Below are positions 31,535 to 35,350 of a stretch of DNA of 64,000 nucleotides, piece after piece. The notes below the pieces were generated by a model, which worked only from the letters and a program-made list of their open reading frames with translations, did no database searches and was not told where the DNA came from. The first letter of the stretch is position 1; every line of letters begins with the position of its first letter. This stretch comes from an uncultured Roseivirga sp. (lineage in GTDB: Bacteria > Bacteroidota > Bacteroidia > Cytophagales > Cyclobacteriaceae). Made by a program: the position numbers and the translations under genes. Where the stretch lies: NCBI GenBank assembly GCA_947493005.1, contig CANLOY010000003.1, forward strand, positions 248,001 through 312,000, given 5' to 3'.

Positions 31535-32560
31535 TTAATCAGTTTTAAACCTTGAATATGCCTTGGGGAATGAATTCTGACCTTCAAAGAAATAAGTTCT
31601 ATACTTTACAAATAGCTCATATGGTTTAAAAACCAGCCTATCGTAATTATCAATTTTTAAACCGACTTGTCTCGCTATTTTATCACCAAGCAAGTAGATC
31701 ATAAATGTCTTAGTAAAGCCTTCCAATTGAGAATCTTCAGTCGCTTTTTCATAATATCTATATAATGCGTCTGCAAGCTTTATACCTGTTTGAGTTGGTT
31801 CAAAGTGTCTTGCCCTAATAGCTTTTTCAAGATTAAAAGCTTTTCTGTTATCATCCGGAATCAAACTAGCTTCAACTCCCATCAATAAACCAACTTTATT
31901 CCAATAACCGATATAGCGAAACGCCCTTTCCGGATCTAAAAAACTACCAAGCTTTCTAAGCCCTCTCACCGTAATCAGCGAAAAAGATAAGTTAATATTA
32001 ACCAAGTCTTCCTGATTTAACGGTTTTCCGAATGCCTCAGTATCCCAATCACCCGACTGATGAATGTTCCAGCGGATTATAGCATTCTTTAGCCTAGCCT
32101 TCAATATGCTGACAATAGCTTTCCCCTTTGGTTGGAAAGCTCCTTCGCTCATAACATCTACTACAAACGATGCATTCTCTTCCACCCAGGTTTCTGGAGC
32201 GTCTAAAACTCCATCAGTTCTTGTCAAAACCTGAGCACCAATAGTTGAAGCGTAACAGTAAGGCACAGACATGAAACCTAACAACAACATGATATCTGAC
32301 GAATAATGATCGAAAAAATCCTGTCCTTTATCCAGCTCTTCTTGTGAAAAGCCTTCAGCCGTTTTCTTTAAGTCTTCGAAAAGTTCCTTCAGTTCAGGGC
32401 TCGCGCCAGATGGTAAAACAGACTTGTTTTCTGTTAGCTTATCCAGATGCTCAATAAGTAATTCTTTGTTATCAGGGTAATAACTATCAATAATCTTATC
32501 TGCAGCAGGATCCTGCTTATCTCTGTATGAGTCGAGATGTTCGTTCGAGTAAATTTCCAT
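31535..32560 (-). CDS. MpaB/rubber-oxygenase-like (DUF2236) protein
   Basis: A 341-residue all-alpha protein. The family pattern is in the middle: SVPYCYASTIGAQVLTRT, the ARLKNAIIRWNIH helix, DWDTEAFGKPLNQEDLV and LSFSLITVRGLRKLG. Relatives are b-type haem oxygenases such as latex-clearing protein, and MpaB of mycophenolic acid synthesis. A His in the RWNIH segment is a plausible haem or partner residue. No signal peptide is seen. It converges with the sigma-factor unit (12 bases) and has no obvious pathway neighbours, so the substrate is unknown. Confidence 0.75.
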   Translation of the reverse strand: MEIYSNEHLDSYRDKQDPAADKIIDSYYPDNKELLIEHLDKLTENKSVLPSGASPELKELFEDLKKTAEGFSQEELDKGQDFFDHYSSDIMLLLGFMSVPYCYASTIGAQVLTRTDGVLDAPETWVEENASFVVDVMSEGAFQPKGKAIVSILKARLKNAIIRWNIHQSGDWDTEAFGKPLNQEDLVNINLSFSLITVRGLRKLGSFLDPERAFRYIGYWNKVGLLMGVEASLIPDDNRKAFNLEKAIRARHFEPTQTGIKLADALYRYYEKATEDSQLEGFTKTFMIYLLGDKIARQVGLKIDNYDRLVFKPYELFVKYRTYFFEGQNSFPKAYSRFKTD

Positions 32561-33815: not shown

Positions 33816-34871
33816 ATGTTCAAAACCTACACCTTCCCCAGTGTATTTGAAGGAAACAATACAGATTTAAGAAACGTATCTCCAGACCTTATAAATGGTC
33901 TTAAACTATATCATAACGGAGATGGATATGTTATTGGCAACCTTGCATTAACAGAAGGTGTGTCTCCTCATAGAAATATCAATAGTGCTCCAGATGAACT
34001 GGATTACCACCTTTTATTGAAGTCAGGAATGTTAGTAGCCAATCAGAAACTTGGCAACCCTTTAACCGTTTCTACTGGTTTTCCATTCTCCACTTTTCAA
34101 TTGTATAAGGAAACAGCAGCCAACCTGATCAATACACAACACATAGTTGAATATGATGCTGCTACTTACGGTGGAGGCGCAAGAAAGAATGTTCAAATAG
34201 ATATTGACAATGTTCAGGTAATCCCGGAAGTTATTGGCTGTGCAATTGCCTTAAGAAAAGGCATTCAAAATGCTAGTGGAAATTTCTTTGTTATGTCTTT
34301 GGGCTATGGAACACTTGAGGGTTTATTGAGCACAGAAGGTGGTATAGTCCAAAGAACATCACTTTCAACTTATGGCTTACGTTATGCTGTTAATCTTTTA
34401 GAAAAAGAGCTGGCCAAAACTTATTATCTGGAATTAAAAACTGAACATCAAATTGATGCAGCTTTTCAAAAGGGTGTTATTTTCTTGAACAGAAAACGAA
34501 TTGATATTAAGGGAATTAGAGACAAGGTATTAAAGCAATACTATGAAGATGTTATCTCCCCTGCTATGAGAAAAGCTTTCAATGATAATGACTTCACAAT
34601 CTCTCATAACATGTATCTTGCTGGAGGTGGAGCCATGTATCCTGAATTGATCGATTGTTTCAAAAGAGAATTTCAGGATGTACTTGAACTTGAAGTAGCA
34701 CATGAGCCTCAAAGCTTAGCAAGTAGAGGATATTGCATCAACTCCGCTCAGTTAAACGGTGGTGTAAAATCTAATGCTGTAGGCTTGGATATTGGTAATG
34801 CGACAACTATTGTTTCGGTTTATGACGAAAACAATCTAAGTTCTGAATCTTCAATTCCTGCTGAGTATTAA
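33816..34871 (+). CDS. Actin/ParM-like ATPase with circularly permuted motif order
   Basis: A 351-residue actin-fold protein. Motifs occur in the order connect-1 (IPEVIGCAIAL, from 136), phosphate-2 (FFVMSLGYGT, 157-166), adenosine (YLAGGGAMYPEL, 267-278), connect-2 (PQSLASRGY, 298-306) and then phosphate-1 (VGLDIGNATT, 322-331) near the C-terminus. In ParM, MreB and actin, phosphate-1 is at the N-terminus. Here the protein begins with YTFPSVFEG, the segment that normally follows phosphate-1, and no such motif is encoded upstream in frame. The phosphate-2 Asp is Ser161. The stop codon shares one base with the ATG of a bactofilin gene, suggesting a cytoskeletal role. The fold call is fairly sure; the permutation is read directly from the motif order. 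Confidence 0.8.
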   Translation: MFKTYTFPSVFEGNNTDLRNVSPDLINGLKLYHNGDGYVIGNLALTEGVSPHRNINSAPDELDYHLLLKSGMLVANQKLGNPLTVSTGFPFSTFQLYKETAANLINTQHIVEYDAATYGGGARKNVQIDIDNVQVIPEVIGCAIALRKGIQNASGNFFVMSLGYGTLEGLLSTEGGIVQRTSLSTYGLRYAVNLLEKELAKTYYLELKTEHQIDAAFQKGVIFLNRKRIDIKGIRDKVLKQYYEDVISPAMRKAFNDNDFTISHNMYLAGGGAMYPELIDCFKREFQDVLELEVAHEPQSLASRGYCINSAQLNGGVKSNAVGLDIGNATTIVSVYDENNLSSESSIPAEY

Positions 34872-35332
34872 TGAGTAGAAAAGAATCTGGATCTGTCAAC
34901 CCATCAACTTACATTACACAAGTAAGGCATGGGAGTGTGATTTCCGGTAACATGAAGTCGGAACACAGTATTCGTGTTGATGGCTTTGTTACGGGTGATT
35001 TAATCTCTAAGGAAAAGATCATTATTGGCGGTCATGGAGAAATTGGGGGCAACCTAAGCGGAACAGACATTACTATTGATGGTTATGTAAATGGTGATGT
35101 CATTGCCAATGGTCTAATCCATATCTCAAAGAGCGCCAAGATTTTTGGTAAAATCTATGCTAAGCGCATTTCCGTGGAGAATGGTGCAGAGATGAATGGA
35201 AAGGTGAATGTAGGTGAGACAATGGAGATTCCAGAGTTAAACACCAGTTCGCCATCACGCTCAACCAAGAATGCTGTACTTTCCCCAAACAAGGAAGATA
35301 AAAACGATAATTATGGAAATGTAGCCTGGTAA
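34871..35332 (+). CDS. Bactofilin (polymer-forming cytoskeletal protein)
   Basis: A 153-residue protein with the bactofilin beta-helix core, about residues 17-115. It has successive short beta turns (GSVISGNMKSEHSIRVDG, GDLISKEKIIIGGHGEIGG, GTDITIDGYVNGDV, AKIFGKIYAKRISVENGAEM) flanked by flexible, Ser/Asn-rich ends. Bactofilins polymerise without nucleotide and act as scaffolds for envelope enzymes. It is translationally coupled to the actin-like gene (TAATG). The last codons form part of a terminator stem, so the operon ends here. Confidence 0.93.
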   Translation: MSRKESGSVNPSTYITQVRHGSVISGNMKSEHSIRVDGFVTGDLISKEKIIIGGHGEIGGNLSGTDITIDGYVNGDVIANGLIHISKSAKIFGKIYAKRISVENGAEMNGKVNVGETMEIPELNTSSPSRSTKNAVLSPNKEDKNDNYGNVAW

Positions 35333-35350
35333 GTCCAGGCTTTTCTTTTC
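35323..35350 (+). terminator. Intrinsic terminator of the actin-bactofilin operon
   Basis: AGCCTGG (35323-35329), loop TAAGT, CCAGGCT (35335-35341), then TTTCTTTTC. The upstream arm includes the last bactofilin codons and the loop includes part of its stop codon. Confidence 0.75.

Follow-up and report, generated by a model that had tools for sequence, protein, structure and literature searches.

A probable circularly permuted ParM/Alp-like actin encoded next to a bactofilin with an aromatic end in Roseivirga

We analysed a window of 64,000 nucleotides from an uncultured Roseivirga sp. (contig CANLOY010000003.1, positions 248,001 to 312,000) and describe here a gene at 33816..34871, on the plus strand, that starts with ATG and encodes an actin-like protein of 351 amino acids plus stop, as read from profiles, a homologue alignment and AlphaFold models. 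Our results support the view that this open reading frame has an actin fold akin to that of the ParM/Alp proteins, cut at the β2-β3 loop, and the protein is very probably a naturally circularly permuted relative of these actins. What is new here is that most loci of this actin have a downstream bactofilin with an aromatic end. We place the permutation at the β2-β3 loop because profile matches, rotation of the sequence with a shuffled control, two structure models, the alignment with canonical chains and the order shared by homologues all agree with it. The original prediction, which had proposed the permutation, located a phosphate-1 motif, VGLDIGNATT, at residues 322-331 of 351 and found no such motif in the frame upstream of the ATG. 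Translation of the open reading frame confirms both statements, as the protein begins with MFKTYTFPSVFEG and the frame is open for only 18 codons 5′ of the ATG, SYYCYYLIVFNFITTKQI, with no phosphate-1-like motif among them. An extra N-terminal phosphate-1, which the same prediction had named as a reason to abandon the permutation, was not seen by eye in the N-terminal extensions of 68 full-length homologue rows, and a missed upstream start with a second phosphate-1 was discarded on the basis of these extensions and the short upstream frame.

The homologues share the arrangement. After dropping eight duplicates and a fragment (L067), we had 60 distinct loci; they encode 59 different full-length proteins, of which 43 remain once redundancy is removed at 93% identity. 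The C-terminal phosphate-1 is common to all 43 of these non-redundant members, with G323, D325, G327, N328 and T331 invariant, and P8, S9 and E12 are likewise invariant near the N-terminus. The pattern D-[ILMV]-G-N was found by eye near the C-terminus in 68 of 68 full-length rows, a count that includes the duplicate loci and from which only L067, a 53-aa contig-end fragment, was left out of 69.

Profile searches point in the same direction. In the native protein, Pfam ALP_N covers residues 3-141 at profile positions 17-148, with 38.1 bits against a Pfam cut-off of 26.3, and this profile matches 34 of the 43 non-redundant members at E 0.01. The match begins, at profile position 17, on residues 2-8 (33819..33839, plus strand), which form a strand in the model and would be β3 of subdomain IA, normally found after phosphate-1. 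Residues 322-348 give a weak alignment (E 0.019) with the first 27 positions of the FtsA profile. When the C-terminal piece is put in front, ALP_N matches from position 1, and the score rises by 4.3 to 7.0 bits for four of the five proteins; L024, the fifth, has no ALP_N match, native or rotated. If the tail is shuffled before it is put in front, the match starts at 16-19, and the score is lower than with the real tail by 3.9 to 8.1 bits in all four. The native order fails to give a full-length ALP_N match, and profile position 1 is reached by rotation only. A similar extension is seen with PHROG 691 (329 positions), annotated as a partition protein: the match starts at position 25 or 47 for the native proteins and at position 6 after rotation, with gains of 2.1 to 7.9 bits in four of four proteins. 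The search with a rotated order that had been suggested as a check therefore extends coverage for both profiles, and for ALP_N the extension is lost with a shuffled tail.

Several observations weigh against this reading. A scan over rotation points against two phage proteins of normal order, themselves ALP_N matches, was nearly flat, with a best domain score of 59.6 at start 320 compared with 58.2 for the native order in the first, and 29.2 at start 328-332 compared with 29.0 in the second; against the host MreB, there was no gain. The rotation scan alone is too flat to place the cut. On BiP, the out-of-order phosphate-1 stretch scores only 1.7 bits, and the gains on rotation are modest because phosphate-1 is short. 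The brevity of this segment, its weak separate profile scores and the flat scan would also suit an alternative in which there is no permutation, a normal actin having lost its phosphate-1 and the C-terminal GLDIGN being unrelated or due to chance. This would, however, leave unexplained why the D, G, N and T are invariant at the same place in 43 of 43 homologues, why contiguous profile coverage disappears on shuffling, and why the segment forms two strands with confident scores in two models. Given the conservation and the shuffled-tail control, we set aside a chance motif or a lost phosphate-1, which we consider extremely improbable.

The two AlphaFold models have predicted template modelling scores of 0.89 and 0.90 and show the actin fold of the actin superfamily (ASKHA). 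In both, residue 1 aligns to approximately residue 20 of solved canonical actin-like chains. The phosphate-1 hairpin occupies residues 321-336 (34776..34823, plus strand; profiles, alignment, model and shuffled-tail control), with strands at 321-326 and 330-336 in both models and values of 83-93 in the predicted local distance difference test when taken in ten-residue blocks. The original prediction expected this region to form strands 1-2 of subdomain IA; the strands themselves are present, and we infer their identity as strands 1-2. ASKHA proteins in canonical order carry phosphate-1 on their first strands; here it lies at residues 321-336, and we class the protein as a variant and not as a canonical member. 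The linker between the last helix and the hairpin is approximately 7 residues long. The hairpin would follow the last helix of subdomain IA and probably dock in cis, in its own sheet, and the new N-terminus would begin at strand 3, which could make the ATP site complete within one chain. We also considered that the hairpin might be swapped between subunits, each protomer lending it to the next so that sheet and ATP site are completed in trans, with filaments growing by donor-strand exchange from seeds on the aromatic tails of a bactofilin polymer. In the models, which are of monomers, a hairpin in cis is favoured over the swap, which is very unlikely.

The remaining nucleotide-site motifs precede the hairpin. 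Residues 133-146 (34212..34253, plus strand), which we take to be connect-1, contain an invariant Glu138, and residues 264-279 (34605..34652, plus strand), presumably the adenosine motif, contain an invariant GGG at 270-272, both located by homologue alignment; together with the phosphate-1 Asp, these are unchanged in all 43 homologues. Phosphate-2 normally has an Asp in a D-x-G pattern, and this Asp has a metal-binding role. The motif anticipated by the original prediction is present at residues 157-173 (34284..34334, plus strand; SLGYGTLE) but altered, as the position of the usual Asp, which stands opposite the Asp of FDLGGGTFD of BiP in profile alignments, is Ser161. Among the 43 homologues, this first Asp is replaced by Ser in 41, Asn in one and Gly in one, so the D-x-G pattern of the superfamily is absent. 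We predict that ATP is bound and that, because the phosphate-2 Asp is lost, its hydrolysis is slow or does not occur.

Immediately downstream lies a bactofilin gene (34871..35332, plus strand; PF04519, E 8e-22, 77.7 bits against a cut-off of 27.9) that overlaps the actin stop by one base (TAATG), and these overlapping genes would share one transcript. The original prediction raised the question of whether all homologues have this neighbour; a same-strand downstream bactofilin is found in 49 of 60 loci, although not in all. By family, the numbers are 36 of 37 in the window's own family, 5 of 5 in f55, 3 of 3 in f41 (in one of these, after a 1-kb gap), 1 of 1 in f54, 3 of 7 in f43, 1 of 4 in f36 and 0 of 3 in f38. 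The window genome contains three bactofilins in all, which makes chance an improbable cause of the adjacency seen in several deep lineages, although the loci are related; other flanking genes vary between most lineages. An association of actin and bactofilin has to be set against the 8 of 60 loci with no bactofilin in the available stretch and the three other f36 loci, which have an ordinary bactofilin approximately 1.2 kb downstream; in G785, a TPR gene separates it from the actin. Eight genomes (G394, G465, G486, G579, G646, G617, G567 and G808) combine the actin with just one bactofilin, which lacks the aromatic tail described below, and this indicates that the actin can exist without a tailed partner. 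On balance, we think it likely that the two proteins are functional partners. M23 peptidase genes (PF01551) were also observed near the actin gene in two distant lineages (L080:6231-7208 and L088:9156-10007), and such genes are close to the actin-bactofilin pair in G259 and G785.

The partner bactofilin of the window ends in NYGNVAW (35309..35329, plus strand; read from the sequence), and an aromatic residue is found at this end in 49 of 49 partners, with Trp last in 42, Trp penultimate in 3 and Phe last in 4 (the tail of L063 was read from L096). In comparison, among 37 other bactofilins of 28 actin-bearing genomes (own, 13 and 14; the 37, whose ends were all read, include three f36 bactofilins), Trp is absent from both the last and the penultimate position, and two have Phe last; eight bactofilins from 15 genomes without an actin match also have other ends. 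Fisher's test gives p 3e-20 for Trp (45 of 49 versus 0 of 37), a value that ignores kinship. The partners are very divergent: in a quick tree that also includes 33 other bactofilins, end branches of the 21 partners reach 5.0 changes per site, and one non-partner branch reaches 3.5. The retention of the aromatic end despite such divergence is a stronger argument than the Fisher value. A terminator-like hairpin covers the last codon and the stop (35323..35341, plus strand; one found, 1.1 expected in shuffles), which raises the possibility that the terminal Trp is kept solely as a codon inside a transcription terminator. Of 25 loci compared, the window and three others of the Roseivirga group do have the terminal TGG within a strong stem (-15.7 to -24.5 kcal/mol), but for the other 21, the best 48-base fold does not exceed -14.5 kcal/mol in strength, the codon being touched by a few weak stems, and the proteins nevertheless have an aromatic end; L012 (Roseivirga ehrenbergii) retains Trp with a fold of only -2.8. 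The terminator explanation is thus highly improbable. It has been reported that PadC binds the long C-terminal tail of BacP from M. xanthus and that the tails of most bactofilins are short and show little conservation (excerpt of PMC12448750). We found no report of a bactofilin C-terminal tail with tryptophan in the open-licence literature searched. That the actin docks on this tail is a tentative suggestion, somewhat doubtful at present.

Taken as a whole, the explanation that we moderately favour is that of a permuted actin of the ParM/Alp type acting as a slow switch that docks on the bactofilin tail: the protein would bind ATP, dock in an ATP-dependent manner on the aromatic end, and thereby join or regulate the bactofilin scaffold in cell-shape or cell-wall work, in which bactofilins are described as acting in the available excerpt of PMC10945521. 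A different possibility is that the permuted actin forms dynamic ParM-like filaments of its own, with the bactofilin as anchor or cargo, as ParR is for ParM. The nearest folds include the filament-forming ParMs Dh-cParM1, pCBH ParM and CorM, PHROG 691 is annotated as a partition protein, and the models show helices and strands at the sites of actin subdomains IB and IIB, an assignment of segments that we assume; on the other hand, the replacement of the phosphate-2 Asp by Ser would, by analogy, slow hydrolysis and turnover, and no member was found in plasmids, phages or IMG/VR, and we consider such filaments rather unlikely. The loss of this Asp, along with the terminal aromatic residue retained in fast-evolving bactofilins, would fit a nucleotide-binding adaptor that neither catalyses nor polymerises and has the bactofilin tail as a peptide ligand, for which PilM with PilN is the model. 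The invariant Glu138 and GGG argue instead for an intact site, and the adaptor appears no more probable than independent filaments.

Regarding its distribution, the family occurs in patches across seven family codes of the phylum, Bacteroidota. A single-sequence search found it in 10 of 291 genomes of the order, and a profile of 11 members in 26 of 196 genomes of its own family (13 of 84 genera) and in 24 of 395 phylum genomes (one, G776, a contig-end fragment); of these 24, 2 belong to its own family and the other 22 to six families (f36, f38, f41, f43, f54 and f55) from other classes, while the remaining genomes sampled from the order and class gave no match. Fifteen named loci with 81-92% identity are Roseivirga and Cytophagales records, and a contig scan with six peptide patterns of the window protein returned close relatives only. 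A quick tree of the 43 proteins largely follows the family codes (7 changes, minimum 6), with f36 and f43 each divided, a pattern consistent with an old family that was inherited for the most part vertically and at times lost. Two f55 genomes, G594:C1 and G638:C1 (L055, L056, L068 and L069), have two actin copies each, every copy with its own Trp-ended bactofilin. No unpermuted sibling was found in the phylum samples, where the hits of a rotated profile, in 19 of 296 genomes, are permuted loci without exception. ALP_N gave nine matches, from 8 of 247 genomes, and each of them starts at profile 16-21, but this search is insensitive and says little on absence, as it missed the window's own gene and other carriers.

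We also considered a phage, plasmid or defence gene. The locus lies on a 796-kb contig, with no sign of a plasmid or phage location; at E 0.01, neither plasmids nor phages gave a match to the window protein, L061 had none in plasmids and three weak ones in phages, a scan of IMG/VR with two peptide patterns found nothing, and PADLOC gave no defence match, so this candidate was dropped. Around the pair, an MPAB_Lcp_cat domain protein (PF09995) is encoded upstream of the actin gene on the minus strand (31535-32560), and a PP2C-like phosphatase (PF13672; 36804-37553) is encoded by the second gene past the bactofilin, after what is presumably tyrS. The leader RNA fold gave no signal (z-score 0.59), and a promoter scan, with 11 found against 6.4 expected, was not used.

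To our knowledge, known actins share one chain order, and no natural actin permuted in this way has been described. Our searches found no natural permuted actin, ParM, MreB, FtsA or Hsp70 in the open-licence literature, and no natural permuted actin or actin-bactofilin pair in open-licence titles and the opening parts of abstracts. A natural permutant retained over deep divergence in one phylum would show that the fold tolerates its nucleotide loop at the far end of the chain, and it offers a natural experiment on folding, filament contacts and sites for the attachment of partners. Since permutation weakens ordinary profile matches, such proteins may be under-annotated. The conserved aromatic end of the bactofilin, in turn, would provide a concrete handle on a direct link between two cytoskeletal families.

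The closest known systems are the ParM/Alp proteins, including Dh-cParM1, pCBH ParM, the PHROG 691 partition proteins and gp506 of Bacillus phage G. Their phosphate-1 hairpin is N-terminal, in contrast to the C-terminal one described here, and the permuted actin also differs in having Ser in place of the phosphate-2 Asp, in its bactofilin neighbour and in not being found in plasmids or phages, a location that is usual but not universal for ParM/Alp proteins, as Dh-cParM1 is chromosomal (PMC12270681, in which the terms "permut" and "bactofilin" have 0 occurrences). MreB and FtsA share the actin fold, but both are present in the host in normal order and retain the phosphate-2 Asp. With MreB_Mbl, the permuted actin scores 20.0 bits, below the cut-off of 27, and with FcmB, a morphology actin of cyanobacteria, it has a weak partial NCBIfam match of 20.2 bits over residues 26-144 only, against a cut-off of 300; membership of MreB, FtsA or FcmB was rejected, as the profile scores lie below the cut-offs. 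Neither "permut" nor "bactofilin" occurs in the main text of the FcmB paper (PMC12645912). The window's genome also encodes a divergent 320-aa MreB paralogue (L071, G000:C2:68840-69733; MreB_Mbl 114.9 bits), with an N-terminal phosphate-1 and an altered phosphate-2, MDFGASKLE, beside the canonical MreB and FtsA. Finally, the module of bactofilin and M23 peptidase described in the available excerpt of PMC10945521 resembles our locus in that a bactofilin has a genomic partner, although there the neighbour is a peptidase, whereas here it is usually an actin.
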